Source: Lacunisphaera limnophila
Lineage (GTDB): Bacteria; Verrucomicrobiota; Verrucomicrobiia; Opitutales; Opitutaceae
Length of the DNA: 64,000 nt
Assembly: GCF_001746835.1 (NCBI RefSeq)
Contig: NZ_CP016094.1
Span: 3,921,501 to 3,985,500 of the forward strand
Reading direction: 5' to 3'
Shown here: piece by piece, positions 6,362-27,940 of the stretch
Layout: the number at the start of each line of letters is the position of its first letter
Position numbering within the stretch: the first letter of the stretch is position 1
Program-made: the position numbers and the translations under genes
The notes under the pieces: model-generated
What the model saw: the letters and a program-made list of their open reading frames with translations, nothing else
Told to the model about the DNA's origin: nothing
Database searches by the model: none

Positions 6362-6405
6362 ACCCCGGTTTCGCCCTCTCAAAACGATCCTTGTCGGCAC
6401 CCCAT

Positions 6406-6436
6406 ACCGGAGGTATAGTATAGACGTCCCTCCGGT
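6406..6436. repeat. Inverted repeat just before the second PEP-CTERM gene
   Basis: ACCGGAGG (6406-6413) and CCTCCGGT (6429-6436) form an 8-bp inverted repeat with a 15-nt AT-rich spacer that ends three bases before the ATG at 6439. In RNA it would form a hairpin that pairs the only GGAGG sequence near the start, so it may affect translation. This is an inference from sequence only. Confidence 0.45.
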
Positions 6437-6438
6437 TA

Positions 6439-9400: not shown

Positions 9401-10349
9401 GGGTCGGCGGCACCGGCGCCCTGCGCAATATTTCCGGCAGCAACACCTACGGCGGCGTCGTGACCCTGACCAACACCACGCAGATCGCCGCCGACGCCGG
9501 GGACCTCACCCTCTCGGGGGCATCACCGGCGCCAACCGCACGCTCACGCTCACCGGCGCCGGCGATTTTTCCATCAACGGCATCACCACGGGCACCGGCT
9601 CCCTCAATCACAATGGCAGCGGCACCACCACCCTGACCGGCGCCAGCACCTACACCGGGGCCACCACCCTCAACGCCGGCACGCTGCGGCTCGGGGCCGA
9701 CAACCTCTTGTCGAACTCCACCGCCGTCACCGTCGCCAGCGGGGCCACGCTCGCCGTCAATGGCTTCACCGACACCATCGCCACACTCGCCGGCGCCGGC
9801 ACGGTCGACTTCGGCTCCGGTGGCACCCTCATCGCCGCCGGCGCGGGCTCCACCACCTTCTCCGGCGACCTCGCCGGCAGCGGCACGTTCACCAAGCAGG
9901 GCGCGGGGATCCTCACGCTGACCAACGACCTCACCTTCGCCGGCACCTTCAACCTCGCCGGCGGCACCCTGCAACTCAGCACCATGAACCTGGTGCTCGA
10001 CACGCTGAACATCACCGGCAACAGCATCATCGATTTCGCGGGCGTCTCCACCTTGGCCCTGACAAACTTCAGCATCAGCGGCGGCGTCACCCTCACCGTC
10101 CAGAACTGGGCCAATGCCTCGGACTATTTCTTCACGCAGTTCTGGACCGGCGCGACCCTGGATGCCACCGGCGCCGCGCCCATGAACCAGATCACCTTCA
10201 CCGGCTTTCCCGCCGCCGACACCAAGTGGCAGTCGTATGACCGCCAGGTCACGCCGGTGCCCGAGCCGTCCACCTATGGCGCGCTGCTGCTCGCGACCGC
10301 CGGCGGCCTGCTCGCCTGGCGCCGCCGGATCAGGCGCCGGGCCGCCTGA
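6439..10349 (+). pseudogene. Second PEP-CTERM beta-repeat protein, interrupted by a -1 frameshift
   Basis: A large surface protein like its upstream neighbour: signal sequence (FVAALLGSLLCGTRLLAQ, about residues 24-41), long Gly/Thr/Ala beta-strand repeats, and a PEP-CTERM tail (VPEPSTYGALLLATAGGLLAW, then RRRIRRRAA). The frame from 6439 breaks at a run of five G (9516-9520) and then reads an unrelated Pro-rich tail to a stop at 9636. The correct repeat sequence (GITGANRTLTLTGAG) continues in another frame to 10349. Adding one G restores a 1303-aa protein. As read, the product would lose its sorting signal. It could be a recent mutation, phase variation or a base-calling error in a homopolymer. 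The 3' end overlaps the convergent pxpA by 20 bp. Confidence 0.8.
7111..9500 (+). repeat. Three direct copies of an 837-bp (279-aa) unit inside the PEP-CTERM gene
   Basis: The segment GALTLGGG.AGTTATV recurs at 7282, 8119 and 8956, exactly 837 bp apart, together with shared downstream blocks such as TNTNNP-GA-I-GNLALGGANRTF, GVLNIRH-DALGTTAAG and ALRNISGTNSYAGALTLAG. Copies 1 and 2 are nearly identical at DNA level over long stretches. Copy 3 has diverged and ends near the frameshift. This shows recent in-frame tandem duplication; outer limits are approximate. Confidence 0.85.
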
Positions 10350-13574: not shown

Positions 13575-14741
13575 ATGACTCCACTCATTCGCCAGTTCCG
13601 CGATTTCTTCGTCTCCCTCCAGCTCACGGTCGTGCTGCTGATCCTCTCGCTGCTGCTCGTCTTCGTGGCGACCCTCGACCAGGTCAACCTCGGCATCTGG
13701 GCGGTGCAGGAAAAATACTTCCGCAGCTTCTTCGTCCTCTGGCGGCTGCCGGATTCCAACCTCGCGCTCCCCGTCTTCCCGGGCGGCTACTTCATCGGCG
13801 GGCTGCTGCTGATCAATCTCATCGCCGCGCACATCTACCGCTTCAGCCTCACCTGGAAAAAATTCGGCATCCAGCTCACCCACGGCGGCCTCATCGTCCT
13901 GCTCGTCGGCGAATTGATCACCGGCATCCTGCAAAAGGACAGCTCCATGCGCCTCGAGGAAGGCCAGACCAAGGCCTACTCCGAGAGCTTCCGTGACCAC
14001 GAGCTCGCGCTGCTCGACCGCACCGATCCGGCCTTCGACGAGGTCGTCGCCGTCCCCGAGGCCGTCCTCGCCGACCAAGGCAGCATCCAGCACCCGAAGC
14101 TTCCTTTCCAGGTCAACGTAAAGGCCTTCTACGCCAACGCCTCGATGCAGATGGGCGCACCCGCCGCCCGGCCCGGCGATCCCGTCGCCACCCAGGGTAT
14201 CGGCAGCCGCGTGCAGGTTGTGCCGATGCCGCTCACCTACAAACCCGATGAGATCAACACGCCCGCCGCCTTTGTGGAGATCGTCGGGCCCTCCGGCCCG
14301 ATCGGTACCTGGGCCGTCTCGCCGCTCGTCGGCATGCCCCAAACTTTCTCCTTCGAGGGCCGCACCTGGGAAATCGTTCTGCGCCTCAAGCGCCACTACT
14401 ATCCCTTCTCCATCAACCTGCTCCAGGTGACCCACGACAAATACCCAGGCACCGAGATCCCCAAGAACTTCGCCAGCCGCATCCGCCTCAAGGACGATGC
14501 CGGCCATGAGGACCGCGAGGTCGTGATCTTCATGAACAACCCGCTCCGCCACGGCGGCCACACGTTCTACCAGTATCAGATGAACGCCGCCGGCAAGATG
14601 TCGGCTTTCCAGGTCGTCCGCAACCCCGGCTGGCTGATGCCCTACATCGCCTGCATCCTCATGGGCATCGGCCTCACCTGGCAGTTCAGCTACTCCCTTC
14701 TTGGTTTCATCAAAAAGCGCTCCGCCGCCGCCGCCCAATGA
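13575..14741 (+). CDS. resB: Cytochrome c biogenesis protein ResB (Ccs1)
   Basis: Membrane component of system II cytochrome c maturation; with ResC/CcsA it delivers heme to apocytochromes outside the membrane. The 388-aa product has N-terminal helices LTVVLLILSLLLVFVATLDQ and FIGGLLLINLIAAHIYRF, a third near residue 105-120 (GLIVLLVGELITGIL), a long extracytoplasmic region, and a final helix (YIACILMGIGLTWQFSYSLL) before a basic tail. The ResB region with HGGHTFYQYQMN near the last helix is typical. It overlaps resC by ATGA. The cargo is obvious from the context: six cytochrome genes and a heme chemoreceptor lie next door on the other strand. Confidence 0.88.
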   Translation: MTPLIRQFRDFFVSLQLTVVLLILSLLLVFVATLDQVNLGIWAVQEKYFRSFFVLWRLPDSNLALPVFPGGYFIGGLLLINLIAAHIYRFSLTWKKFGIQLTHGGLIVLLVGELITGILQKDSSMRLEEGQTKAYSESFRDHELALLDRTDPAFDEVVAVPEAVLADQGSIQHPKLPFQVNVKAFYANASMQMGAPAARPGDPVATQGIGSRVQVVPMPLTYKPDEINTPAAFVEIVGPSGPIGTWAVSPLVGMPQTFSFEGRTWEIVLRLKRHYYPFSINLLQVTHDKYPGTEIPKNFASRIRLKDDAGHEDREVVIFMNNPLRHGGHTFYQYQMNAAGKMSAFQVVRNPGWLMPYIACILMGIGLTWQFSYSLLGFIKKRSAAAAQ

Positions 14742-16657
14742 AAAAGTTCCTCCCTCTCATCGTCCTGCTCCTCGGCGTCGTTTACCTCGCCTCGACGCTG
14801 CGCCCCGAGAAAAACCCGACCGGGTTTGACCTCGCCGGCTTTGGCCGCGTCCCCGTCCTCGTCAACGGCCGCATCAAGCCGCTCGACACGGTCGCCCGCA
14901 CCTCCCTGCTCACCATGCAGGCCCGCCAGCGCGTCAGCTCGCCGGAAACCGGCACGTTTGTCAGCTCGCCCTCCGAGTGGCTCGCGACGGTCTTCTTCGA
15001 TGCCGCCAAGGCCGACACTTTTCCCATCATCAAGATCGACTCCCCCGAGGTGCTGAGTCTCCTCGGCCTGGAGGAAAAGGACATCCGCATCGAGTACGAC
15101 AGCGTGGCCAAGCGCACGATGGCCGTGCTCGGCTTCCTCCCCTCGACCAAGTCCCGTTTCTCCTACGCCCAGCTGAAGCCCAGGCTGCCCGAGCTCGACC
15201 GCCAGGGCCGCCTGGCCGAACCCGTCGAGTCCCAGCTGCGCACGCCGTTCCAGAAGCAGGTCATCGCCGTCCGCAACCGCGTCATCCTCTACCTTCAGCT
15301 GCGCCTCTCCGTGCAGATGCCCGAATCCACGGACTTCCTCACCGAGCTCGAGCTCTTTGAGAAGGCCTTGCCCGCCGGCATCGCCGCCGTCCTCGCCAAG
15401 CAGCGGGGCGAAGCCCACAGCACCGAGGCCCTCGGCGTCATGAAGGAAATGGCCGACCGTTTCGCCTACATGGAGCAACTGGGCCACCTGCGCCTCGTGC
15501 CGCCCGCCGACGGCGACAACGATCCCAGCCACTGGGAACTTACCGGCACGACCCTCCTCGGGTCCTTCGGCACCGGCAAGATCAACCCCACCGTCATGGA
15601 GTACGCCCGCCTCGGTCAGGCCTGGCGCAAGGGCGACACGGCCACTTTCAACCGCATCGTCGCCTCCCTGCATGACCAACTCGAGCCCCGCTACCCCGAG
15701 GCCATGCGCAAGAGCGACATCGAGTCCCGCTTCAACGCCGCCGGCCCGTTCTACAGCAGCATGACGCTCTACGTCTGGGCCTTCCTGCTCGCGGTCGTCT
15801 CCTGGCTCAAGTGGCCGGAACAGCTCGGCCGCGCCGCGTTCTGGCTCCTCACCCTCGCCTTTGTCTCCACCAGCGCCGGCATTTTCGCCCGCATGTGGCT
15901 GGAGGGCCGTCCGCCGGTCACCAACCTCTACTCCTCTGCCCTCTTCGTCGGCTGGGGTGCCGTCTTCCTCTGTCTCTTCCTCGAGAAATTCTACCGCAAC
16001 GCCATCGGCAGCGTGGCCGGCGGCCTCATCGGCTTCGCCACCCTGCTAATTGCCCATCACCTCTCGCTGAGCGGTGACACCCTCGAGATGATGCGCGCCG
16101 TCCTGGATTCCAACTTCTGGTTGGCGACGCACGTGATCATCATCACCATCGGCTACTCGGCCACCTTCCTCGCGGGCTTCCTCGCCGCGATCTACGTCGC
16201 CCGCGGCCTGCTCACCCGGACGCTGGACAAGACCACGGCCGACGCCCTCACCCGCATGGTCTACGGCATCGTGTGCTTCGCCACCCTCTTCAGCCTCGTC
16301 GGCACCGTGCTCGGCGGCATCTGGGCCGACCAGTCCTGGGGCCGCTTCTGGGGCTGGGACCCGAAGGAGAACGGCGCCCTGCTCATCGTCATCTGGAACG
16401 CCGTCATCCTCCACGCCCGCTGGGGCGGCATCGTGAAGCAGCGCGGCCTGATGGGCCTCGCCCTCTTCGGCAACATTGTCACGAGCTGGAGCTGGTTCGG
16501 CACCAACATGCTGGGCGTCGGCCTCCACAGCTATGGCTTCATGGACGCCGCCTTCTACTGGCTCATCGCCTTTGTCTCCAGCCAGCTGCTGCTGATCGCG
16601 CTGACGTTGATCCCGCTCGAGAAATGGCGGAGCTTCCGGACGCCGGCCACGGCCTGA
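14738..16657 (+). CDS. resC: Cytochrome c biogenesis protein CcsA/ResC with long N-terminal extension
   Basis: Heme handling and export partner of ResB (system II). The C-terminal half is a multi-helix CcsA domain with the WWD-type heme-binding motif (WGRFWGWDPKENGALLIVIW) and conserved His residues on either side (LLIAHHLSLSG, NFWLATHVII, GVGLHSYGF). The first about 340 residues (one helix near residues 4-20, then a soluble extracytoplasmic part) are an extension absent from short CcsA proteins. The length is 639 aa. It starts within the resB stop. Its stop at 16657 abuts the convergent chemoreceptor gene with no spacer and no terminator. Confidence 0.9.
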   Translation: MKKFLPLIVLLLGVVYLASTLRPEKNPTGFDLAGFGRVPVLVNGRIKPLDTVARTSLLTMQARQRVSSPETGTFVSSPSEWLATVFFDAAKADTFPIIKIDSPEVLSLLGLEEKDIRIEYDSVAKRTMAVLGFLPSTKSRFSYAQLKPRLPELDRQGRLAEPVESQLRTPFQKQVIAVRNRVILYLQLRLSVQMPESTDFLTELELFEKALPAGIAAVLAKQRGEAHSTEALGVMKEMADRFAYMEQLGHLRLVPPADGDNDPSHWELTGTTLLGSFGTGKINPTVMEYARLGQAWRKGDTATFNRIVASLHDQLEPRYPEAMRKSDIESRFNAAGPFYSSMTLYVWAFLLAVVSWLKWPEQLGRAAFWLLTLAFVSTSAGIFARMWLEGRPPVTNLYSSALFVGWGAVFLCLFLEKFYRNAIGSVAGGLIGFATLLIAHHLSLSGDTLEMMRAVLDSNFWLATHVIIITIGYSATFLAGFLAAIYVARGLLTRTLDKTTADALTRMVYGIVCFATLFSLVGTVLGGIWADQSWGRFWGWDPKENGALLIVIWNAVILHARWGGIVKQRGLMGLALFGNIVTSWSWFGTNMLGVGLHSYGFMDAAFYWLIAFVSSQLLLIALTLIPLEKWRSFRTPATA

Positions 16658-18196
16658 TTAACCAGCGGCTCCGGTCAAGCTGAGGGACTCGCGCACCGGC
16701 TGGCGGAAAACATCTGGGCCGCCACCGAGTGCTTCCTCTGTGGCGGGGGCGCCCCCATCGATCAGGCTGGCCAGCGCCTGCACGGCGGCATCGAGCTGCT
16801 CGGACTGCCCGGCCAGCTGCTGCGCCGAAGCGGCGTTCTGGTCCGCGCCCGCCGCATTCCGCTGCGTCACCTCATCCATCTCGCGCGCGGCCTGGTTGAT
16901 CTGGCCGACGCCCGCCGCCTGCTCCCGGCTGGCCTGGCTGATGCCGGCCACCAGCTGGCCCAGCCGCTCCGTGGCCTGGGCGTTGCCCACGATTGCAGCA
17001 CGGACCTGGGCGAAATCACGCTGGGTTTCCTGCAGATGCTGGCGCGAGTTTTCCAGCAGCCCCTCGGTGGTCTTCGCCGCCTCGGCGGAGCGCCGGGCGA
17101 GGTTGCGGACCTCCTCGGCCACCACAGCGAATCCGCTGCCGGCCTCGCCGGCGCGCGCGGCCTCGACCGCCGCATTGAGGGCCAGGATGTTGGTTTGGAA
17201 GGCGATCTCGTCGATCGTGCGGATGATCTTCGCGGTCTCGGCGCCGGCCGTGACGGCCTGCGCCAGCGTCCCTTCCATCTGCGCCGACAGGCCGGCGATG
17301 CGCTGGTAATTGGGGGTGACCTCGTCCCGCACCGTGGTCTCGGCCTGGCTGGCCGCCTCGGCGTTCTGCTTGGTCATGCCGGACAGCTCCTCCAGCGAGG
17401 CGCCGGTCTCCTCGATGGCGGCCGCCTGCTGGCTGGCCCCGGCGGCCATCGACTGGCTGGACGTCGCGATGGTGCGCGCCGCCTCCCCGACCGCCCCGGC
17501 CTGCACCCCGAGCCGGGTCGCGATGGCCTGCAACGGCCGCACCACCTGGCGGCGGATGAGATACAGCGTGAGCAGGGCGACGCCCCCCAGCAAAAAGACC
17601 GAGGTCAGCACTGTGCTGCGCAACATGTCCGACTGCAGGCGCTGCGCCGCGCCGGTCCACTGCACACGGCTTTGCTTGAGCGACTCATTGCTGAATTGAT
17701 AGGCGATGATTCCCGCCACCGCCCGCCCGCGGTAGTTCTTATGGCACTCGAAGCACGATTCCGTGACGGCCATGGGACGATAAATGATGAAGGAGTCGTC
17801 CGTCTGCTGCTTCACCACCTCGGGCGATTTCAAGAGGCCCTGCAGCGCCTCGGGCAGGGGCCGTTTCAACGCCTCCGGGCGGGAGCTGTAGAGGACCTTG
17901 CCCTTGGTGCCGTAGACCGAAAGCTCCTGCACCCCCTGCACCTTGCGCTGTTCCTCGACGAGGAAGCGCACCTTGTCCATCTCGCCCTCCGACATGGCGT
18001 CGACAATCGCGCTTTCCGTGGCATGTTCCAGGGTCTCGATCCACTGCCACTGGTCGGCTTCCTCATGGCGCAGGTTGTCGGCCGCGAGCGCCTTGACCAG
18101 GCTGTTGCTGCGCTGCCACTGCACGGCCTGCGAGCCGAGGTAGATGGCCGAGATGCCACCGAGGAGGGAGAGGAGGATTTTGCCGTTGAGGGTCAT
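16658..18196 (-). CDS. Methyl-accepting chemotaxis protein with periplasmic c-type heme motif
   Basis: Transmembrane chemoreceptor of 512 aa. From ATG 18196 ([14 protein letters not shown]): helix 1 at about 5-25, a periplasmic sensor to about 195 (DUF3365/Tll0287-like) with CFECH at residues 148-152, helix 2 ([15 protein letters not shown]), a HAMP-like linker, then a cytoplasmic coiled coil with the kinase-control tip ([20 protein letters not shown], then [17 protein letters not shown]). CXXCH in a periplasmic domain implies covalent heme and hence redox, oxygen or NO sensing (inference). It is the last gene on the minus strand of the cytochrome island, 142 bp after the 11-heme gene, and convergent with resC, whose product would be needed to attach the heme. 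The ORF is open 14 codons further up, but ATG 18196 fits the first helix. Confidence 0.9.
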
Positions 18197-18286
18197 GGTT
18201 GTTCCATCGGCCCGCGTGAGCGGGTCGCTGACAGGCAACCGGACAGCGTGGAATGCTGTTACCTCTCGCAGGGATTAACGGCACAA

Positions 18287-18321
18287 CCGGCCTGGGACTG
18301 AAACCCAGCCGGCCTTTTTTT
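18287..18321 (+). terminator. Intrinsic terminator-like hairpin reading on the plus strand
   Basis: CCGGCCTGGG (18287-18296) pairs with CCCAGCCGG (18304-18312) with one bulged base, followed by CC and seven T (18315-18321). The T run is on the plus strand, although both flanking genes are on the minus strand. It could end transcripts reading through from resC antisense to the chemoreceptor gene. On the minus strand the same hairpin lies in the chemoreceptor leader, without a good T run. Confidence 0.6.
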
Positions 18322-18338
18322 GAACTCCGCGCCGGTCC

Positions 18339-20507
18339 TCAGTGGACCAGACGGGAAACCATGGCGTAGACGATGAGCGCGAGCAGGATCAGGCCGGTGC
18401 CGAAGAAGATGAAGCCCCAGGTCTTGGCGATGTGCTTGCGGCCTTCCCAATCGTCGGACTTCACCCGGAAGACTTCGAGCCGGCCGGCGGCCACCAGGCG
18501 GTCGTACCAGCGCTTCCGCTCATGGAGCATCTCGGTCTTCGAGATGCGGCCGGAGAAGATGACGGTGTCCATCGGGAATTTCTCGATGCGGAAATGGGTG
18601 TTGAAGAAGTGGAACGAGAAGATGAAGCCGGCGGCCAGCAACGCCTCGTCGGAGTGCACCACCAGGGCGATGTTGATCACCCAGCCCGGCAGGAACTGCG
18701 TAAAGAAGCCGGGGAACCACATGATGAGGCCGGAGAAACCGATGATCGCCACGCCCCAGAAAACCGCGAAATAGTCAAAGCGCTCCCAATAGGTCCAGCG
18801 GTCGAACTGCGGCTTCGGGCCCTTGCCGAAGAACCACTTTTGGTGCGCGATGAAGTCGCGCCAGTCCTGCGGTGAGGGAACCATCGAGTCGGGGTGGAAG
18901 ATGATCCCAAAAAGGCGCGCCAGCGTGAACTTGCCCGTGACCGGATCCTTCAGGCCGCCGCGATTCCGCCAGAAGCCGCGCACCAGCGCGCCAAGGTGCA
19001 GGCCGAAGTACGCAAAGGTGACCACCGCCGCATAGTGGTGCAGGGTGCGCGCCACCTCGGCGTTGCCCAGCAGGCGGAACATGAGCTTCGCCCAGTCCGT
19101 GTAGTAGAACTTGAGCGGCATGCCGGTGATCACCAGGGCCAGGAAACTCGTCACCATCATCAGGTGCAGGAAGCGCTCAAAGGGCGTGAAGCGGGTGTAG
19201 TTCTCATCATCCACGTGCGTCTGCACCACGGCCGCGCGGAAGGTCTTCGTGTCGTGCAGGTAGAGGTAGATCGAACGGAAGAGCCAGAACGCCGTGTGCA
19301 GCCCGAAGAAGCTGAACACGCCGATGAGCAGCGAGGTCATGAACCAGAAGACCTTGTTCAGAATCGGGTAGTTCTCCTTGTCCAGCGGGTTGGCGTGCGG
19401 CTGGTACTCGGTGAACTTTGGCCCGACCCCCGGATGGCACTGCTGGCAGGTCGTCAGGATCTGGTCCTTGGACAGTCGCGAGCGCGGGTCGCTGACCGGG
19501 AAGACGTCGTGGTGGCCGTGGCAATCGTAGCACGCGGCGACATCGGAGGCCACGTTCGGCTGGCCGAGGGCCATGGCCTTGCCGTGGTAAGTCTCGCGGT
19601 AGTGCTCCAGCCGATCCTCGTGGCACTTGCCGCAGCTCTGGTCGCTGTTGGCCTTGAAGTGGGCGTTCGCCGGTTTCTCGATGTCGTGCGCGCTGTGACA
19701 GTCCGTGCAGACCGGACCCTGCTTGTCGCCTTTCAGCAACAACTGGCCATGCACGCTCTCCTTGTAGGTGTCCTCGATGCCCAGGTGGCAGGTGCCGCAG
19801 CTCTTGGCGATGTTGGCGTGGTTGGTGTGCGACTCCTTGTCGACACTGCGCTTGATGTCGTGGACGCCATGGCAGTCGTTGCAGGTGGGCGCCACCACCA
19901 GACCCATCTTGACGAGGGCCCGGCCATGGATGCTGTCGAGATAATGGCCCTCCGCCTTTGACTGGCCCATGCGGTAATCCTTGGTGATCTTCGCGTCGTC
20001 GTGGCATTTCGCGCAGGTCTTCGCCAGGTTGAACACGAACACCGGCGAGTCCGCCTGCTTGACCGGCACCATGTCGTGCGTGCCGTGACAGCTGGCGCAG
20101 GTGGCGGCGTCGGACGAGCCCATCTCATGGCTCACCCCGTGGATGCTGTGGTTGAACTGGGTGACCGCATCCGCGTGGCAGCTCGCGCATTGGGCCGGCG
20201 GCAGCTTGGAGGGATGCTCGGGTTCGGTGATCGAGGCGTGGCAATCCACGCAGTTGATTTTGCCATGCACCGATTTGGTGAAAATCTCAGGCCGCACGCC
20301 GACCCACTCCTTGGGCTGGCCCCGCTTGCGCGCCTTGAACTCGGCCTCGTGACAATCCAGGCACTCGCTGTTCGGGATGACCGCCGGAGCGGCCGCCAGC
20401 GCGACGGGCTCAGTCGGCTCGGCGCCCCGGACCGTCCCCCACCCCAAGGCCCAGACGCCGACCAGCGCCAGCATGATCCGGACCCACGATGAGGAGACCT
20501 TGTCCAT
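18339..20507 (-). CDS. 11-heme c-type cytochrome fused to membrane cytochrome b domain (CbcL-like)
   Basis: Predicted inner-membrane quinol/quinone oxidoreductase exchanging electrons with periplasmic cytochromes. The 722-aa protein has a signal sequence (about 9-29), a periplasmic half with eleven CXXCH motifs (CLDCH, CVDCH, CASCH, CASCH, CAKCH, CNDCH, CGTCH, CTDCH, CGKCH, CYDCH, CQQCH), then a C-terminal membrane half with helices carrying candidate heme b His ligands (FLHLMMVTSFLALVITG, LHHYAAVVTFAYFGLHLG, FIFSFHFFNTHF). The architecture matches Geobacter CbcL (recalled as nine c hemes plus a di-heme b domain) but with two more hemes. It is paralogous to the gene upstream, sharing NSECLDCHEAEFKAR. 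The ATG at 20507 is followed by a normal signal peptide. Confidence 0.88.
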   Translation of the reverse strand: MDKVSSSWVRIMLALVGVWALGWGTVRGAEPTEPVALAAAPAVIPNSECLDCHEAEFKARKRGQPKEWVGVRPEIFTKSVHGKINCVDCHASITEPEHPSKLPPAQCASCHADAVTQFNHSIHGVSHEMGSSDAATCASCHGTHDMVPVKQADSPVFVFNLAKTCAKCHDDAKITKDYRMGQSKAEGHYLDSIHGRALVKMGLVVAPTCNDCHGVHDIKRSVDKESHTNHANIAKSCGTCHLGIEDTYKESVHGQLLLKGDKQGPVCTDCHSAHDIEKPANAHFKANSDQSCGKCHEDRLEHYRETYHGKAMALGQPNVASDVAACYDCHGHHDVFPVSDPRSRLSKDQILTTCQQCHPGVGPKFTEYQPHANPLDKENYPILNKVFWFMTSLLIGVFSFFGLHTAFWLFRSIYLYLHDTKTFRAAVVQTHVDDENYTRFTPFERFLHLMMVTSFLALVITGMPLKFYYTDWAKLMFRLLGNAEVARTLHHYAAVVTFAYFGLHLGALVRGFWRNRGGLKDPVTGKFTLARLFGIIFHPDSMVPSPQDWRDFIAHQKWFFGKGPKPQFDRWTYWERFDYFAVFWGVAIIGFSGLIMWFPGFFTQFLPGWVINIALVVHSDEALLAAGFIFSFHFFNTHFRIEKFPMDTVIFSGRISKTEMLHERKRWYDRLVAAGRLEVFRVKSDDWEGRKHIAKTWGFIFFGTGLILLALIVYAMVSRLVH

Positions 20508-20597: not shown

Positions 20598-22796
20598 TCA
20601 AGCCGGGTCCGACCCGCCCGGCGGTGGGCCCGGCGGCGGGGTCTGCTCCGCCGCTTTCATCGCCTCCAACTGCAGCGGATGCTCCTCCCGCATCTCGGCC
20701 TCCGACATCTGCCCGGTGAGCCAGGCTAGGTTCATCGGATACACATCCGGGTTGAAGATCACGAAATAGAAATGCCAGCAGATGATCGCCAGCGTCGCCA
20801 GGATGGCCTCGTAGTAGTGCACCGTGCGCGCGACGTCGAAACCGAGCTTGGCGAAGAGATTCATCGAGGTGTTGTCGAACCAGAGGACGGCGCCGGTGAT
20901 GCCCATCAGCAGCGTGCCCCAGACCATGGCCCAGTATTCGACCTTCTCGATGTAGCTGAACCGCCCGAAAGCAGGTTTCGTCGGCGCCAGGCCGAGGTTG
21001 TACCGCAACACCCGCCAGGGATCGGTCACATCGCGCCACCGCGGCAACAGATCGAGGAAGAGCTGCCGGCCCGGCCGGGTCCCGGCGAGGTACCAGACAT
21101 GCCAGGCGCCGCCGGCCAACATGATGACGCCGGCCACCCGGTGGATCAGGCCGCGCCACTCAAAGGCCCGCGCGCTGAGGCTGCGCAGCCCCACCACCCA
21201 CCACGCCTCGGGGAAACGCAGCATGAAGCCCGTGACCACCAACACGACAAAGCTGATCACCAGCACCAGATGCTGCAGTCGCTCATGCCCGGTCATGCGG
21301 ACGTAGAGCCGGTGGGCGACGTGGGGCTCCACCAGCTCGCCCTTCTGGATGGCGAGCTTCCGCCGGATCTTCTTCAGGAAATCCAGCCCGTTGTGCACGA
21401 GCATGCCGCCCACCGTCCCGGCGATCAAAATCAGATAGAACGTGGCGATCCAGTACAACACGGGGGAACCGTCGCGGTGCTCGTCGCTGGAGTGGACCGC
21501 GCCGATCGTGAACCGGTCGCCGGCGCCGGGATGACACTCGCCGCAGGTCTGCACCAGGTTCGCCTTGTGCACGCTCGAGGTCGGGTCTTCCTGTGACTTG
21601 ATGATGTGGCTGCCGTGGCAGCTGGCGCAGTTGACGACACTCACCGCGCCCCCGCGCACGGCGAGGCCGTGGTAACTGTCGGTGAAGGTTTTGAAGGTGT
21701 CGCTCGAAAGCCCGTAACGGCGGGTAAGCCGGACCGAGTCATGGCATTCGGCGCAAACCTGCTGAGCCAGGTTCGCCGAGTGGACCCGGGAGGCCGGATC
21801 CTTGTGCGGCTTGATGTCATGCTCGCCGTGACAGCTGGTGCACCCGGCGGAGTCCAGGTTGCCCTGGCCGAGGGCGATGGCATGCACGCTCTGGCGGTAG
21901 TCGTCCGCCTGCTTTTCATGACAGCGCGCACAGGTTTCCGTGAGGTGCAGCCGATTGATGGACGCCGAGCCCACCGCGGCCTTGTTCATGGCATGCGCGC
22001 CGTGACAGTCCACGCAGCTGGCGGCGTCCGCCTTGCCGGCCTGCAGCGCGGCCCCGTGCACGGAAAGATCAAAACCGGCCACGAACTTCGCGCCAGCCGT
22101 CGGCTGCTCCCCCGCCCCGGGATGGCCCACGTGGCAGGATTCGCAGAGGACAGCCTGGGCCAGCTTCAGCTCCACCGTCGGGCTCTTCAGCGCCTGCGCG
22201 CTGATCGGGTCGCGGTGGCAGGACAGGCAGTTGGGGGGGCGACGGTCGGAGCCGGGTACATTCAGGGCGTGCGCCGAGGCGAGGAATCCCTGTTGCGCTT
22301 CCTGGTGACAGCGCCCGCAGGCCTCCGCCTGGACGCGGGCCGCAAACGGAAAGTCCGGGTGCTTCCCCGCCAGCATCTCATGCGGGTCGTGACAGGACGC
22401 GCAGCTCGTGTCCTCGCCCTCCGGCCGCGGGTTCAACGCCATCCGGGGATGGAAGGCATGCTTGGCCGCGGTGTCCTCGTGGCACGACAGGCAGTCCACC
22501 TTCGGCAGTTTGGACGGATGTTCCGGCTCGGTGATGCTCGTGTGACATTCCACGCAGGCCAGCCCCCAGTGGGCGGACTGTTCGTAGGCGGCGGGTTTGA
22601 TCCCGATCCATTCCTTGGGCTGACCCTTCTTGCGCGCCTTGAATTCCGCCTCATGGCAGTCGAGGCACTCGCTGTTGGGCACCACCGGCGGCGGCTTGCC
22701 GCCAACGATGGCTTCCTCCCCGCGGACCCAGACGGCCGCGCTGAGCCCGACCCAAACAACGCCGGCAAAAAGCCGGAGCAGAGCTGAAGTGTTCAT
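20598..22796 (-). CDS. 13-heme c-type cytochrome fused to membrane cytochrome b domain (CbcL-like)
   Basis: Second fusion of the same architecture (732 aa): signal peptide (LLRLFAGVVWVGLSAAVWVRG), thirteen CXXCH motifs between about residues 40 and 420, then a cytochrome b561/HydC-like membrane part with His-bearing helices (HERLQHLVLVISFVVLVVTG, LIHRVAGVIMLAGGAWHVW, TVHYYEAILATLAIICWHFY). It probably shuttles electrons between the quinone pool and the periplasm. I start at ATG 22796, preceded by AAGGGA. The frame is open 52 codons further upstream, but only this start gives a signal sequence at the N-terminus. The C-terminus is Pro-rich (TPPPGPPPGG). It probably arose with the downstream 11-heme gene by duplication followed by gain or loss of heme modules. 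Confidence 0.87.
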   Translation of the reverse strand: MNTSALLRLFAGVVWVGLSAAVWVRGEEAIVGGKPPPVVPNSECLDCHEAEFKARKKGQPKEWIGIKPAAYEQSAHWGLACVECHTSITEPEHPSKLPKVDCLSCHEDTAAKHAFHPRMALNPRPEGEDTSCASCHDPHEMLAGKHPDFPFAARVQAEACGRCHQEAQQGFLASAHALNVPGSDRRPPNCLSCHRDPISAQALKSPTVELKLAQAVLCESCHVGHPGAGEQPTAGAKFVAGFDLSVHGAALQAGKADAASCVDCHGAHAMNKAAVGSASINRLHLTETCARCHEKQADDYRQSVHAIALGQGNLDSAGCTSCHGEHDIKPHKDPASRVHSANLAQQVCAECHDSVRLTRRYGLSSDTFKTFTDSYHGLAVRGGAVSVVNCASCHGSHIIKSQEDPTSSVHKANLVQTCGECHPGAGDRFTIGAVHSSDEHRDGSPVLYWIATFYLILIAGTVGGMLVHNGLDFLKKIRRKLAIQKGELVEPHVAHRLYVRMTGHERLQHLVLVISFVVLVVTGFMLRFPEAWWVVGLRSLSARAFEWRGLIHRVAGVIMLAGGAWHVWYLAGTRPGRQLFLDLLPRWRDVTDPWRVLRYNLGLAPTKPAFGRFSYIEKVEYWAMVWGTLLMGITGAVLWFDNTSMNLFAKLGFDVARTVHYYEAILATLAIICWHFYFVIFNPDVYPMNLAWLTGQMSEAEMREEHPLQLEAMKAAEQTPPPGPPPGGSDPA

Positions 22797-23081
22797 CGTC
22801 CCTTGCGGAACGACAAAGTGCCACATCCCGCGACCGCCGGCTGCGCAGGAGTTGGCAGGCGCGGAGCGTATCTTGTGAGTGGCACCCCGCCGCGGCCGCC
22901 CGGTAGCGGAAAGCGTAAGCATTTCGTCTCGCGCGCAAACGAAACGCCCCACGTGCCACGAGCGAATGCTACGCTAGCTTGGTCTCTTGCCGTGAACGCA
23001 CGGGATCAGGCCTGGCAAAGGCTGAAGGGCGGGCTTCCACCCTTCAGCGAGATTAAACGGATCCCCTGCCCGACCGGCCGG
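22797..23081. other. 285-bp gap between two cytochrome genes
   Basis: No gene is seen. The gap holds a 9-bp hairpin (GCTGAAGGG/CCCTTCAGC, 23022-23049), 33 bp after the ImcH-like stop, without a good T run. It also holds the decamer CAAGATACGC (minus strand, 22866-22875), about 70 bp before the 13-heme gene. The same decamer lies about 60 bp before the 11-heme gene. The 13-heme gene therefore probably has its own promoter here. Confidence 0.4.
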
Positions 23082-24581
23082 CTACTTGCCCTGGATGCCG
23101 CCGTTGTGACAGTCGGCGCAGGTCAGTTCCTCGTCGTACTCACCGTTGGGGTGCACGAACTCAAGGCCGGTGGGACTGATGGAGGCGAGCTCCTCGCCCT
23201 TGCCCTGCGCGATGATGGTATGGCACGAGGTGCAGTCACTGGCGCGCACGGTCTCGCCCTTTTCCGTCTTGTGCTTGTCATCATGGCAGCGGAAGCAGCC
23301 GACCCAGTCCTTGTGCCCGATGTTATTCGGGTAGACGCGCCAGTCGGCCTTGCGCTCGGGGAAGATGGTCGTGGCGTAGATCTCCTGCACCGCGGCGATG
23401 GTGCCGGGCAGGTCCGCGTGGTCCTTGTATTTCGCCTGGAGGAATTCGGCGATCTTGGCGGGGGCCTCGGCGGAGGTGGTGATCTCCTCCTGCATCATGG
23501 CCTGGACCGCGCTGCGCTTGATGTTGGGCAGCTTGGTGCTGACCTTGCCGAGGGCCATGGCGTGCTCCACGGTCTCGTTGGCCGTGGGGAAGACGTGGGC
23601 CGGACGGTTGTGGCAGTCCATGCAGTCCATGGCGCGCACCAGGTCGGCGGGCGGCTCGCCCTTGAATTCCTCGTTGCGGAAGATCTTCACCGTGCCGGCC
23701 TTCTTGTCGGTCACGCGCATCCAGACGATGTCCTGGCGCTTGGTGTCCACGGCGTAATACTCGACCACGTTGTCGGGGCTCACATGCCAGTGAATGCCCC
23801 CGATCGGGCTCCCGGGCCGGCCGGCATTCACGTGCATGAGCATGCGGATGGTGTGGGTGTCATTTTTCCGGTTGGAGAGGTAATGGTCATAGACCAGCTC
23901 GACGTTGCCGTGGAACTTCTCCGGCCAGTGGCACTGCTCGCAGGTTTCGCGGGCCGGGCGGAGGTTGTGCACGGGTGTCGGGATCGGGCGCTGGTAGTTG
24001 TCGAGGGTGTAACCGATGAGCTGGCGGGTGCCGTTGAGCTTGGCCTGAATGAAGGCCGTCGCCCCCGAGCCGACATGGCACTGCACGCAATCCACCCGTG
24101 CATGGGCGCCGCGCTGGTACGTCTGGAATTCGGGATTCATCGCCGTGTGGCAGACCTGGCCGCAGAACTGGTTGGACTCGGCGTAATGGTAGGACTGGTA
24201 GCTGCCGAAGGCGCTGAGCAGCAGGAAAACCACCCCGCCGGCGCCAAACAGGACGAGCAGGCGGCGCTGCGCGGCGTTGCTGAAATCCAGCCGCCACTTG
24301 TCGGGCTTGGTCGCCGCATGCTTCGCCGCCCAACGGCGCTGAGCCCAGGCCCCAAAGAAAGTCAGGGCGATGCCGGCAATCAAAAAGCCGGGCGCGACGA
24401 TGTAGCTGAAAATGCCGAGGTAGGGATTCTGGTTGGACCCGGTGAGGTCCATCCAGGTCAGCAGGGCAAAGGAGAACAGGGACCCGAGCGAGAGCACCGC
24501 GCCGATCGCGCTGATCCAATTGTTGAAATCCGAACGGGGTTTGGATGCGGCGGCGGGCGGCGGGACGGGAGCGTCACTCAT
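23082..24581 (-). CDS. Seven-heme NapC/NirT-type inner-membrane cytochrome (ImcH-like)
   Basis: Predicted membrane-anchored quinol-oxidising cytochrome of 499 aa. Three N-terminal helices (about 20-46, 56-79, 103-130) precede a periplasmic domain with one CX3CH motif (CGQVCH, directly after helix 3) and six CXXCH motifs (CVQCH, CEQCH, CMDCH, CFRCH, CTSCH, CADCH). Three helices plus seven hemes on a NapC/NirT core is the layout I recall for Geobacter ImcH, which serves high-potential extracellular acceptors. Ordinary NrfH/NapC proteins have one helix and four hemes. It lies between the small cytochrome and the CbcL-like genes, so the cluster holds both kinds of quinone entry point. The ATG at 24581 gives a 19-residue cytoplasmic lead. 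Confidence 0.88.
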   Translation of the reverse strand: MSDAPVPPPAAASKPRSDFNNWISAIGAVLSLGSLFSFALLTWMDLTGSNQNPYLGIFSYIVAPGFLIAGIALTFFGAWAQRRWAAKHAATKPDKWRLDFSNAAQRRLLVLFGAGGVVFLLLSAFGSYQSYHYAESNQFCGQVCHTAMNPEFQTYQRGAHARVDCVQCHVGSGATAFIQAKLNGTRQLIGYTLDNYQRPIPTPVHNLRPARETCEQCHWPEKFHGNVELVYDHYLSNRKNDTHTIRMLMHVNAGRPGSPIGGIHWHVSPDNVVEYYAVDTKRQDIVWMRVTDKKAGTVKIFRNEEFKGEPPADLVRAMDCMDCHNRPAHVFPTANETVEHAMALGKVSTKLPNIKRSAVQAMMQEEITTSAEAPAKIAEFLQAKYKDHADLPGTIAAVQEIYATTIFPERKADWRVYPNNIGHKDWVGCFRCHDDKHKTEKGETVRASDCTSCHTIIAQGKGEELASISPTGLEFVHPNGEYDEELTCADCHNGGIQGK

Positions 24582-24663: not shown

Positions 24664-25005
24664 TCAGGCCTTCAGCTTGCGGATGAAGTCGACCAGGTCC
24701 TTGGCCTCCGTGTCAGGCTTCTCGAGTTCGTCCTTGAACGCCTTCATGCGCTCCTTGCCGTTCTCGGTGACACCCTCGAGGATGGCCTTGAGCATCTCCT
24801 CATCCTTGAGTTCGGCCTGGACCGCAGCGTCGGAATAGTCGCGGATCTTGAGTTTCTTGCCCTGCTTGGTCTGGGCCTTGCCATCCTCACCGTGACAGGA
24901 GGCGCAGAGGTTTTCCCAGTTTTCCGCGGCGGTGGCGGCGCGGCCGGCAACACAAACGGAGGCCAGCGTGAGGCCGAGCAGAGCGAGTTTCGTGGTGGTT
25001 TTCAT
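24664..25005 (-). CDS. Small periplasmic monoheme cytochrome c
   Basis: Class I c-type cytochrome of 113 aa with a signal peptide (KLALLGLTLASVCVAGRAATA), one CASCH heme motif at about residues 35-39 (LCASCHGEDGKAQ), and a likely Met ligand in ERMKAF. The start is ATG 25005 (MKTTTKLALLG); the frame extends 40 codons upstream into the porin gene tail and is not used. It lies 28 bp after the porin stop. A small soluble carrier between inner-membrane oxidoreductases and the outer-membrane conduit is the expected role (inference from position). Confidence 0.88.
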   Translation of the reverse strand: MKTTTKLALLGLTLASVCVAGRAATAAENWENLCASCHGEDGKAQTKQGKKLKIRDYSDAAVQAELKDEEMLKAILEGVTENGKERMKAFKDELEKPDTEAKDLVDFIRKLKA

Positions 25006-25033
25006 CGGAGTGAATCGGAGGGGGTGGAGCAGA

Positions 25034-27139
25034 TCAGAACCGGTATTGCAGCTTGCCGTAGAGCATGTGCGCCTCGTAGTCGGCATAACCGCCATTCGGC
25101 ACGTCATCGTTCTTGGCGTAGGCATACTTTAGCGTCACCGAGGTGCGGCGGTCAAGCCTGCGGGTCCAGGTGACGGAGGCCAGCTGCGTCTTCGCATCGG
25201 AACCATAGGCGACCGTGCGATTCGAGTTGTCCACAAAGCTGTCCTTGGACTCGGTGACCGCGTAGTCGAAGTAGACATCGCTCTGCTCGTCGAGCACGTA
25301 GCCGCCACCCAGGCTGAGGTAGATGTAGTTGGCGTCGGAGTTCTTCACCAGGCCGCCGGCGGCGCCCGTGAGCGGGGCGGCGGGGGTGCGCAGCGTGTCC
25401 CAAACCATGTTGGCTGCACCCTGCACGTACCAGCGCGGACGCGGGGTCCAGCTGATGGTCTCGGAGATGATGTGCGTGGTCATGCTGCCGCTCTCGTTGA
25501 AGGCCAGGCCGATGTCCTGCGAGGTGATCGAGCTATCCTGATAATCGTAGCGGGTGACCGAGCGCAGCTGGGCACCGAGCTTCGTGCTGAGGCGGACGTT
25601 GAAGTCGTTCGTCTCGAAGTCCTGGTTCGCCAGGTAGGCGGGATAACGGTCGGCCGAGCTGACGGTATTGTCGCGGGTGTTCCGGTAATCGTTGGTGCGA
25701 ACCTTGTAGTAGTACTGGGCCGCCACCGTGGTGCCGGGCATGACATACCAGGTCGCCGTGGCGGCGTACTTCTCGCTCATGCGCTCAAAGCGGGTGTCGC
25801 GGTCGATCGAGACGATGGCATGAGTCGTGCCGGGCTCGAGGATGCGTTCTTCCGTGAGATCACCTTCGGAATCGGTCCAGTCGGCCTTGAAGTTCAGGGA
25901 GACCTTTTTGATGCCGGTGTAGCGGGTCTCGATGCTGGCCGCGACGACTTCCCAGTCCTTCTCGCTGTCGGCGCCGACGAGCTCGACCGCGGGCGGGCGG
26001 GTCGTGCCGCCGCCGAAGTTGGTCTCCTCGAACTCAACCTCGTTGGTCCAGTCGATGGTCTCGAAGCGGACGGAAGGGACGATGACCAGGGTCTCGCGCG
26101 GCTGGTAGCGGGCGCTGAGTGTGCCAATGGTCTGCTTCATCTCGGACTTGCCGTGCAGGGCGAAGAAACCCTCGTCGCGCTGCTGGCGGTTGACGAAGGC
26201 ACCGTCATACACCGGGTCGTAGTCGGCACCGTAGATGCGACTGCCGCTCAGAGTGGTATCGATGGTCGTGGTCGCGACGGCCGTGGTGACCATCAGCTTG
26301 TCGTGAATCTTGTTCTCGTAGGAGCCGCGCACCTGGAAGAGGTCGTAATCCTGACCTTCCTTCGCGGTAATCTTGCGGTCCAGCCCCGCTTCGCCGGCGC
26401 GCCGGTTGATGTTGCGGGAGTTGGTGTAGTCACCTTGGTCGACGCGAACACCCAAGGCCCAAGCGCTGTTGTCCTTGGCCTGGCTGACGTCAGCCGAGAG
26501 CTGGTGGCGCTTCTCGTCGATGCCGAGGAAGGTGGGCAGGAGACCGCGGGTGTTCGCCGCGTTGACGGCCAAGCCGGTGTCACCCCAGGAGGTGGAACTC
26601 TTCGTGCCCTTGCGGGTGAAGAGGTCGTACCGGACGTTGAAATGCGGCTTGTCCTCGGGGAGGAAGCCGGCCTCGAACCAGAGGTTGCCCCGGTCGATGG
26701 CGAGGTCCTCGTCATAGAGCGAGCGGGTGAACATCCGGGACGGCAGGTAACCGCCGCGGCCGTCATACCAGACCCGGAATTCCTTGTAGCCGAGCTTCAC
26801 GAATCCGACGTCGTCCTTGGTCACGGTGAGGTCGAAGAGGTAGTCGTTGTTGCCCGCCAGCGCCCGGCCCTTGAGGACCAGGGTCGTGGTGTCGTTGAGC
26901 GACTTCGTGAGGTAGAGATCCTCGACGCCACCAAACCCGTTCTTGTCGAGCAGGTTGTGTTTTTGAAAGGCCGGGCTGTGGCCGTCGGTGTCGACGTAGC
27001 CGTAGGCGAAATCAATGTTGTTCTCGAGCGGGGCTTCTTTCGGTTCGGCAGCCGGCAGTGCGCCGGCGGCGAGAAAGAGGCCCGCGCACACCAACACGAC
27101 AGGCCGGCTAAGGGAGGGGATGGAAGAGTTGAGGTTCAT
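25034..27139 (-). CDS. Outer-membrane beta-barrel porin of porin-cytochrome conduit (MtrB/PioB family)
   Basis: Large outer-membrane barrel of 701 aa with a signal peptide (VVLVCAGLFLAAGALPAAEP) and alternating amphipathic beta strands throughout. Examples are TTLVLKGRALAGNNDYLFDL, KPHFNVRYDLFTRKG and SVTLKYAYAKNDDVPNGGY. It ends in Phe (YGKLQYRF), the usual barrel-assembly signal. In MtrAB/PioAB/OmaB-OmbB systems this barrel holds a multiheme cytochrome and lets electrons cross the outer membrane. The immediately upstream gene, 21 bp away, encodes that cytochrome. Assignment is by length, strand pattern and context; MtrB/PioB sequences diverge widely. Confidence 0.87.
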   Translation of the reverse strand: MNLNSSIPSLSRPVVLVCAGLFLAAGALPAAEPKEAPLENNIDFAYGYVDTDGHSPAFQKHNLLDKNGFGGVEDLYLTKSLNDTTTLVLKGRALAGNNDYLFDLTVTKDDVGFVKLGYKEFRVWYDGRGGYLPSRMFTRSLYDEDLAIDRGNLWFEAGFLPEDKPHFNVRYDLFTRKGTKSSTSWGDTGLAVNAANTRGLLPTFLGIDEKRHQLSADVSQAKDNSAWALGVRVDQGDYTNSRNINRRAGEAGLDRKITAKEGQDYDLFQVRGSYENKIHDKLMVTTAVATTTIDTTLSGSRIYGADYDPVYDGAFVNRQQRDEGFFALHGKSEMKQTIGTLSARYQPRETLVIVPSVRFETIDWTNEVEFEETNFGGGTTRPPAVELVGADSEKDWEVVAASIETRYTGIKKVSLNFKADWTDSEGDLTEERILEPGTTHAIVSIDRDTRFERMSEKYAATATWYVMPGTTVAAQYYYKVRTNDYRNTRDNTVSSADRYPAYLANQDFETNDFNVRLSTKLGAQLRSVTRYDYQDSSITSQDIGLAFNESGSMTTHIISETISWTPRPRWYVQGAANMVWDTLRTPAAPLTGAAGGLVKNSDANYIYLSLGGGYVLDEQSDVYFDYAVTESKDSFVDNSNRTVAYGSDAKTQLASVTWTRRLDRRTSVTLKYAYAKNDDVPNGGYADYEAHMLYGKLQYRF

Positions 27140-27160: not shown

Positions 27161-27940
27161 TTAGAAGCGGAGGGAGGAACTGACATGCGAGCCGTGGATG
27201 GCCTCGTGGCAGCCGGCGGACCAGCAGGTGCCGCGGGAGAGGAAGGAGGCGTGGTCGCGGCCGCCGATCAGGATGACGCCGGGGGCGGTCTGCTGCTGGA
27301 AGTGACATTGCAGACAGAGGTTGGCGTTGCGCGCCTTCAGCATCTTGTCGTTGAGCGAGCCGTGGGGGCTGTGGCAGGTGATGCAGCCTTCGCGGGAGGC
27401 CTCGTGCTCGAACACGTAGGGGCCGCCTTGCTGCACGTGGCACTTCACGCAGGACTCGTTGAGCGCGGTGAAGTTGGTGCCGCCCTCGGAGATGGCGTCG
27501 CCGGTGTGCGGGCTGTGGCAGTCACTGCAGTTCATCTTGCCCTCGAGCACCGGGTGCGCGTTCGGCAGGGCGAACTCGCCGCGCTTGTCCAAGTGGCACT
27601 GGAAGCAGGTCTCGGGGGAATTCTTCGGGTTGACGATGTTGTCGCGCCCGCCGCCGGCCTTGGCGTGCAGGGAGCCGGCGCCGTGGCAGGACTCGCAACC
27701 GATGGCCTCGCCCTTCACGTCCTCGGCGAACAGCTTGGCGTGGGTCGCATCATGGAACTTGGAGGTCACGTCCTCGTGACACTGGGAGCATTTGCTGTCG
27801 CCGACGTAGGTGGCGCCCGCGATCGTGGGCGGCGCGACGACGGTGCGTTGCACGACAACACAGCCAACGAGGAACATTCCCCAGAGGGCGGTGCCGCCAA
27901 AAATCATCGTGGTTTTGGACCAGCTTGGTTTGTAGCTCAT
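27161..27940 (-). CDS. Octaheme periplasmic lipoprotein cytochrome (MtrA/PioA/OmaB/DmsE-like)
   Basis: Cytochrome half of the porin-cytochrome conduit, 259 aa. The N-terminal signal ends in a lipobox (GMFLVGC, Cys27), so it is probably lipid-anchored. Seven CXXCH motifs (CSQCH, CESCH, CFQCH, CSDCH, CVKCH, CITCH, CLQCH) are followed by a C-terminal CWSAGCH, a CX4CH spacing that may bind an eighth heme. Repeats such as CVKCHVQQGGPYVFEHE and CITCHSPHGSLNDKML fit the DmsE/MtrA family. MtrA and PioA have ten hemes; Geobacter OmaB has eight. It is the first gene of the minus-strand cluster, with 225 bp upstream before the next gene, where the main promoter should lie. Confidence 0.9.
   Translation of the reverse strand: MSYKPSWSKTTMIFGGTALWGMFLVGCVVVQRTVVAPPTIAGATYVGDSKCSQCHEDVTSKFHDATHAKLFAEDVKGEAIGCESCHGAGSLHAKAGGGRDNIVNPKNSPETCFQCHLDKRGEFALPNAHPVLEGKMNCSDCHSPHTGDAISEGGTNFTALNESCVKCHVQQGGPYVFEHEASREGCITCHSPHGSLNDKMLKARNANLCLQCHFQQQTAPGVILIGGRDHASFLSRGTCWSAGCHEAIHGSHVSSSLRF

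Follow-up and report, generated by a model that had tools for sequence, protein, structure and literature searches.

The chemoreceptor gene and its surroundings

The window, the whole stretch of 64,000 nucleotides that was analysed, carries on its minus strand a gene for a chemoreceptor (MCP) at 16658..18196. This open reading frame of 512 amino acids starts with ATG, and its product matches the MCP signalling family in Pfam (MCPsignal, PF00015, E 9.3e-34; 117.2 bits against a cut-off of 34.6) with a best stretch encoded at 16865..17308; an alternative TTG start would give 526 amino acids and extend the gene to 18238. Hydropathy predicts a first membrane helix at residues ~7-25 (18122..18178), which is also a helix in the structural model described below, and a second at residues ~191-215 (17552..17626). 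The region between them, residues ~28-190 (17627..18115), was assigned as a periplasmic heme-Cache sensor domain from its fold and profile matches, and no HAMP family was matched after the second helix in Pfam at E 0.01. The predicted heme-binding motif CFECH lies at residues 148-152 (17741..17755) and contains the only two cysteines of the protein (residues 148 and 151), followed immediately by His152; a C..CH pattern arose in 9 of 200,000 shuffles of the protein's own composition. Since the motif is flanked by the hydrophobic stretches ~7-25 and 191-215, it is predicted to lie outside the cytoplasm, and the translated reading frame together with this topology bears out its placement in the periplasmic domain by the initial annotation.

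Upstream of the receptor gene, the minus strand encodes, in this order, a periplasmic multiheme cytochrome with seven CXXCH and one CX4CH (27161..27940), a porin-like protein (25034..27139), a small monoheme cytochrome c whose start is probably further in (24664..25125), a NapC/NrfH-like multiheme cytochrome with six CXXCH and one CX3CH (23082..24581), and two proteins in which multiheme regions of 13 CXXCH (20598..22952, start codon uncertain) and 11 CXXCH (18339..20507) are fused to a cytochrome b561-like membrane domain. The two fusions were recognised by Pfam and the other three cytochromes by Pfam and NCBIfam, with the motifs of the multiheme proteins counted; the porin-like protein, which matched no Pfam or NCBIfam family, was named as the porin of a porin-multiheme complex by cluster homology and gene order. 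The architecture of the two fusions presumably resembles that of Geobacter CbcL. The stop of the last cytochrome gene (18339) and the ATG of the receptor are separated by 142 bases on the same strand, so that the receptor gene does lie directly behind the multiheme genes, as had been noted. A possible hairpin was found in this gap by folding (18262..18335, minus strand), but it was rejected as a terminator, being of ordinary stability (z -1.19; equalled by 21 of 200 shuffles); the terminator scan did not report it.

On the plus strand, genes for a ResB-like (13575..14741, Pfam ResB) and a ResC/CcsA-like cytochrome c maturation protein (14738..16657, Pfam Cytochrom_C_asm) run convergently towards the receptor gene, the end of the latter at 16657 abutting the MCP stop. 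The initial annotation had called on these neighbours for maturation of the receptor's heme. They are present, on the opposite strand, but say little about the receptor because ResB or ResC also adjoins cytochrome genes in several clusters that have no MCP, and we did not count them as evidence for its heme. Further away, the plus strand encodes long repetitive proteins of surface type (4364-10349), which carry autotransporter-like repeats and a C-terminal anchor that we take to be of the PEP-CTERM kind.

The analysis does not support an identity of the cytochrome cluster with PioAB/MtrAB conduits: the porin is without a family match, and the periplasmic cytochrome scores 156.3 bits against the cut-off of 192.2 for TIGR03508 (DmsE/MtrA). 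The cluster is instead of the verrucomicrobial porin-multiheme type, in which a porin gene adjoins that of a periplasmic multiheme cytochrome. He et al. (2017) describe the latter as eight-heme, with Opitutus terrae among the organisms included, and propose for such clusters a role in the extracellular transfer of electrons to humic substances (PMC5615132); the word "chemotaxis" is absent from the main text of that paper. The window cluster differs from these in that two multiheme-cytochrome b genes and the MCP gene follow.

The sensor domain and its family

An AlphaFold2 model built from the single sequence of the window MCP (mean pLDDT 64.6) consists of helices and five strands, with strands 128-131 and 135-142, the CFECH loop and strand 162-169 following each other at moderate confidence; the motif loop (145-161), which precedes the last strand, was modelled below pLDDT 50. 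Searching the PDB with this model by Foldseek returned CitA (8.9e-5), GSU0935 (3b42_B, 9.8e-4) and GSU0582 (3b47, 2.5e-3), with WalK and TlpQ also among the structural matches, and the top 50 matches of a second structure aligner were mostly Cache-/PAS-like sensor domains (Z up to 12.4). Roadblock/MglB chains were also numerous among the Foldseek matches, and the profile search of the PDB placed a roadblock protein first (E 0.0034). We take this likeness as a shared helix-sheet arrangement, since the matching sequence spans only a portion of the domain that leaves out the motif, and since roadblock/MglB proteins are cytoplasmic.

Profile comparison points to the heme-bearing receptors of Geobacter sulfurreducens. 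A profile of nine family members matched 3b47 weakly over profile positions 47-165 (E 0.087 in a one-sided search), and hhalign against GSU0935 and GSU0582 gave E-values of 3.9e-7 (A1) and 2.3e-7 (A2) with a probability of 93. Two Pfam families matched weakly: PF21563 (Mcp40H-20_sensor), which we assume to be linked to GSU0582/GSU0935, covers most of the sensor at E 0.0066 (17.2 bits, below the cut-off of 27), and PF11845 (Tll0287-like/DUF3365) matched best at residues 117-155 (131-169 in the 526-residue numbering) with E 0.00035 (21.5 bits, below the cut-off of 24.1). With respect to the DUF3365/Tll0287 check proposed earlier, the domain shares with sCache_heme/Tll0287-like/DUF3365 proteins the Cache fold and a CXXCH in the loop that leads to the final strand, and falls short in the PF11845 score. 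Elsewhere in the genome, at ~1.413 Mb, a 214-residue frame with CLDCH (L001:1477-2121, minus strand) exceeds the Tll0287-like cut-off and is a second, apparently stand-alone, heme-Cache candidate.

To describe the family, residues 1-299 were searched against 236 genomes of the class, and a profile search was run on 384 class genomes, in which the family occurs in eight, own genome included; a phylum-wide profile search found it in three of 387 genomes, two of them already known. The resulting alignment comprises 13 receptors from nine genomes, the window MCP among them. CXXCH is kept in 12 of the 13, the exception (L055, genome G343) having lost both cysteines and kept the histidine; lack of conservation of the motif among close homologues had been named beforehand as one point on which the heme proposal could fail. 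Gly71, Gly99, His152 and Gly162 are invariant, and residue 73 (codon 17978..17980 in the window MCP) is methionine in 12 of 13. Residue 68 (codon 17993..17995) is methionine in seven, with leucine or isoleucine in the remainder, including all four hydrogenase-linked receptors described in the last section; any switch based on Met68 would therefore not be family-wide. The closest relatives of the window MCP show 38-39% identity to it, and in the tree it groups with L046, L047, L048 and L091 (branch support 99/99). The four congeneric genomes searched (G064, G117, G155 and G492) gave no receptor match at E 1e-6.

The genome encodes ten MCPs, and among the nine that could be compared CXXCH occurs solely in the window MCP. 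Four loci from the contig scan (L042-L045) were left out of the receptor family, and in two of them (L042 and L044) no CXXCH was present in the open frames picked out by a loose MCP tip pattern. From the conservation of the motif, the Cache fold and the profile match to GSU0935/GSU0582, the window MCP very probably carries a covalent c-type heme on the periplasmic side, and the original prediction of such a heme is well supported.

Proposed redox sensing and its alternatives

The window MCP is best read, from its sequence, as a divergent, HAMP-less relative of GSU0935 and GSU0582 (PDB 3b42 and 3b47). Like these it has a single periplasmic Cache/PAS-like domain between two MCP membrane helices, with one CXXCH near the domain end; it differs in its low identity to them (15-16% in profile alignments), its verrucomicrobial origin, its gene surroundings and its lack of a HAMP domain, which the Geobacter receptors are reported to possess (PMC3460858). 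The heme of GSU0935 is reported to be liganded by His144 and Met60, and the hemes of both proteins to be high-spin when oxidised and low-spin when reduced, through a switch from His/water to His/Met, with potentials of -251 mV for GSU0935 and -156 mV for GSU0582 (PMC8396549). Met68 of the window MCP lines up with Met60 of GSU0935, the first methionine of its MM pair by a numbering worked out from the GSU0935 sequence, in three local alignments that are gap-free in this region. Met73 is a second ligand candidate, at a position where GSU0935 has serine. Another MCP with a periplasmic c-type heme, DcrA of Desulfovibrio vulgaris, which we set beside the window MCP by description, reportedly senses either redox potential or oxygen and differs in having an additional cytoplasmic PAS domain (PMC8396549). 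The heme-bearing chemoreceptors of the papers cited here are those of Geobacter and Desulfovibrio, and redox and nitric-oxide readings coexist for domains of this kind.

Since Met68 takes the place of the ligand that switches with redox state in GSU0935, redox sensing is plausible, and we favour, with moderate confidence, a HAMP-less heme-c Cache chemoreceptor that reads the periplasmic redox state by a Met68 ligand switch. In the mechanism proposed, of which we infer the heme loading, the ligand switch, the natural redox signal, the array joined, the sign of the response and any exchange of electrons with the conduit, CFECH would attach the heme and His152 would serve as its proximal ligand. 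With reduced iron, the distal ligand would be Met68, which sits on the N-terminal helix and might be supplied by the partner subunit; oxidation would release it from the heme iron. The change in coordination could then alter the helices that lead into the second membrane helix and so change CheA activity in the main flagellar array, so that the cell would steer by a periplasmic redox poise which the neighbouring cytochromes may help to set. The signalling region can be aligned to those of eight further MCPs of the genome by opening a gap of one residue and has the same tip type (the comparison left out L011, a 1114-residue frame near the second CheA, as its tip pattern was unmatched), and the window MCP can therefore probably join the same array as the genome's other MCPs. 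Two CheA genes and four flagellin matches were found in the genome. Lacunisphaera limnophila IG16b, the likely source strain, is reported to grow aerobically and to show very few motile cells (PMC5303756). These traits tell against the favoured reading, as do the sub-threshold Pfam scores, the leucine or isoleucine at residue 68 in part of the family, the poorly modelled motif loop, the roadblock/MglB chains among the fold matches and the lack of a match in the four congeneric genomes.

The main rival to redox sensing is a nitric oxide (NO) receptor, in which ferrous heme would bind NO with displacement of the distal ligand and the cell would steer from or toward NO; sequence cannot separate the two, and we hold the NO reading to be possible though rather unlikely. 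A preprint of 2026, whose family sets contain GSU0582 and GSU0935, makes the case that heme Cache domains with fused signalling parts are NO sensors, and reports for such a protein from P. azotoformans tight binding of NO without a stable complex with O2 (PMC12889525); NO binding has likewise been reported for both Geobacter proteins (PMC8396549). NO chemistry is possible in this organism because the genome encodes an NrfA-type nitrite reductase (PF02335, E 3.4e-133). The P. azotoformans protein is, however, a single tested case, and with Met68 placed where GSU0935 has Met60, a ligand linked to redox state would be expected. Those relatives that are linked to hydrogenases suggest electron donors instead of NO, and among the nine neighbour proteins scanned no NO enzyme was named, the NapC-like one matching NrfH weakly. 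The original proposal of taxis toward redox conditions is thus plausible through Met68, while the preprint favours NO. A methionine at the switching position, a source that has probably been cultivated and a nearby conduit together allow the redox and NO models to be opposed. Direct oxidation of the heme by O2, making the protein an aerotaxis receptor of the kind once proposed for DcrA, has in its favour that report and the aerobic growth of the likely source strain (PMC5303756); we think it very unlikely, given that the preprint obtained no stable O2 complex with the heme Cache proteins it tested (PMC12889525), and by sequence it would be indistinguishable from general redox sensing. The scarcity of motile cells in that strain (PMC5303756) and the distant relative without both cysteines would suit a copy that has decayed or fallen out of use and has no role that depends on heme. 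An open reading frame with an intact signalling tip, and the retention of the motif and its neighbouring residues at 38-39% identity to the nearest relatives, make this highly improbable.

A further alternative is that the adjacent conduit cytochromes reduce and oxidise the heme directly, so that the receptor would read the electron flux of that chain only. The initial annotation had suggested taxis toward redox conditions or solid acceptors matched to this respiratory chain. Apart from the position of the gene behind the cytochrome cluster on the shared strand, direct reading is favoured by co-occurrence: the periplasmic cytochrome was found in 81 of 384 class genomes, and in six of the eight with the heme receptor against 75 of the 376 others (p=0.0015; 5/7, p=0.005, without the own genome), two 384-genome draws being treated as one set for these counts. 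This excess fades when the comparison is made with MCP-bearing genomes (5/7 vs 18/46, p=0.12; 3/5 vs 18/46, p=0.33, inside the 52-genome set alone), a baseline drawn from a 52-genome set that possibly lies not wholly inside the 384-genome draw and to which two heme-receptor genomes, G730 and G743, do not belong. The survey of co-occurrence suggested earlier thus gave a significant result against all genomes and lost it against those with MCPs, and we did not retain it as evidence of a link. The porin was matched in 16 of 177 genomes of the order, own included, at E 1e-10, and none of the 15 other porin loci gave an MCP match within the stretches fetched, six of which lie on contigs that end early. 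On this sample the position of the MCP is therefore peculiar to its own genome. Of the two cytochrome b fusions, that with 13 CXXCH found a match in one of these 15 clusters (L085) and that with 11 CXXCH in none, and around the two receptors in the same family (genome G231) no multiheme frame was present in ~20 kb each. The possible hairpin may, besides, separate the transcripts. We regard direct reading of the conduit as quite unlikely, and the match of the window MCP to this respiratory chain and its link to the conduit, which is mainly one of position, as weak. Among the literature matches listed, none mentions in its title or in the opening of its abstract a heme receptor next to a porin-cytochrome cluster, which leaves absence unproven.

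Hydrogenase-linked relatives

Four of the 13 receptors (L049, L050, L103 and L105) follow immediately on [NiFe] hydrogenase genes: the gene of the small subunit directly precedes that of the receptor, and the gene of the large subunit lies upstream in every case, although in L049 the contig starts within it and contains just its last part. In the tree these receptors make up one side of a branch whose support, 89/90, lies below the firm mark of the tree tool. In the two of the eight receptor-bearing class genomes that lack the cluster cytochrome (G034 and G184) and in G343, from outside the class, and in no others, the sole family receptors are hydrogenase-linked, a split that was noticed post hoc. 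A search with the small subunit gave 39 matches in 37 of 374 genomes, of which 30 loci were examined. An MCP tip lay within 1.5 kb in three, namely the query's own locus and its two closest relatives (53-56% identity), and in none of the other 27 (<=44% identity), in a survey that would miss an MCP starting beyond a few hundred bases.

These relatives (L103, L050, L049 and L105) possibly form hydrogen-taxis systems. In L103 (7103-18695) the hydrogenase-receptor pair heads a che operon, the order being large subunit, small subunit, heme MCP, CheW, another MCP, CheA, CheR, CheD, a further gene and CheB. An analogue is the regulatory hydrogenase HoxBC of Ralstonia, which passes a signal to a sensor protein, the histidine kinase HoxJ; it differs in being cytoplasmic and in acting on a kinase and on transcription, whereas here hydrogenase genes precede a periplasmic heme receptor. 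No report of a hydrogenase-chemoreceptor pairing was found among the open-literature matches listed, which does not prove its absence. More generally, verrucomicrobial heme-Cache receptors might be wired to adjacent redox enzymes, the [NiFe] hydrogenase in one group and the porin-multiheme conduit here. The heme of each receptor would then be charged by one particular electron source or sink encoded beside it. We consider this general scheme unlikely; if true, chemotaxis would follow how one enzyme is working, as true hydrogen taxis or conduit taxis, and not the bulk redox potential. In the hydrogenase-linked relatives an enzyme and a chemoreceptor are apparently paired; they make a separate case that can be tested directly, and their pairing is a more surprising lead than the conduit link of the window MCP.

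When every frame was checked in all 11 receptor loci, none had at least two CXXCH. Five further receptors (L046, L047, L048, L051 and L094, the last in L104) gave no hydrogenase, conduit or Che match in the stretches fetched around them, one of which is only 11 kb; in L048 a Rieske/ferric-reductase-like gene lies two genes from the receptor. Three receptors are found in chemotaxis clusters, two of them in L052 and one, L091, in L102. The family member that lost both cysteines is the hydrogenase-linked receptor of L105 (8494-10131, minus strand), where MIRFH replaces CXXCH, which offers a natural comparison without covalent heme.
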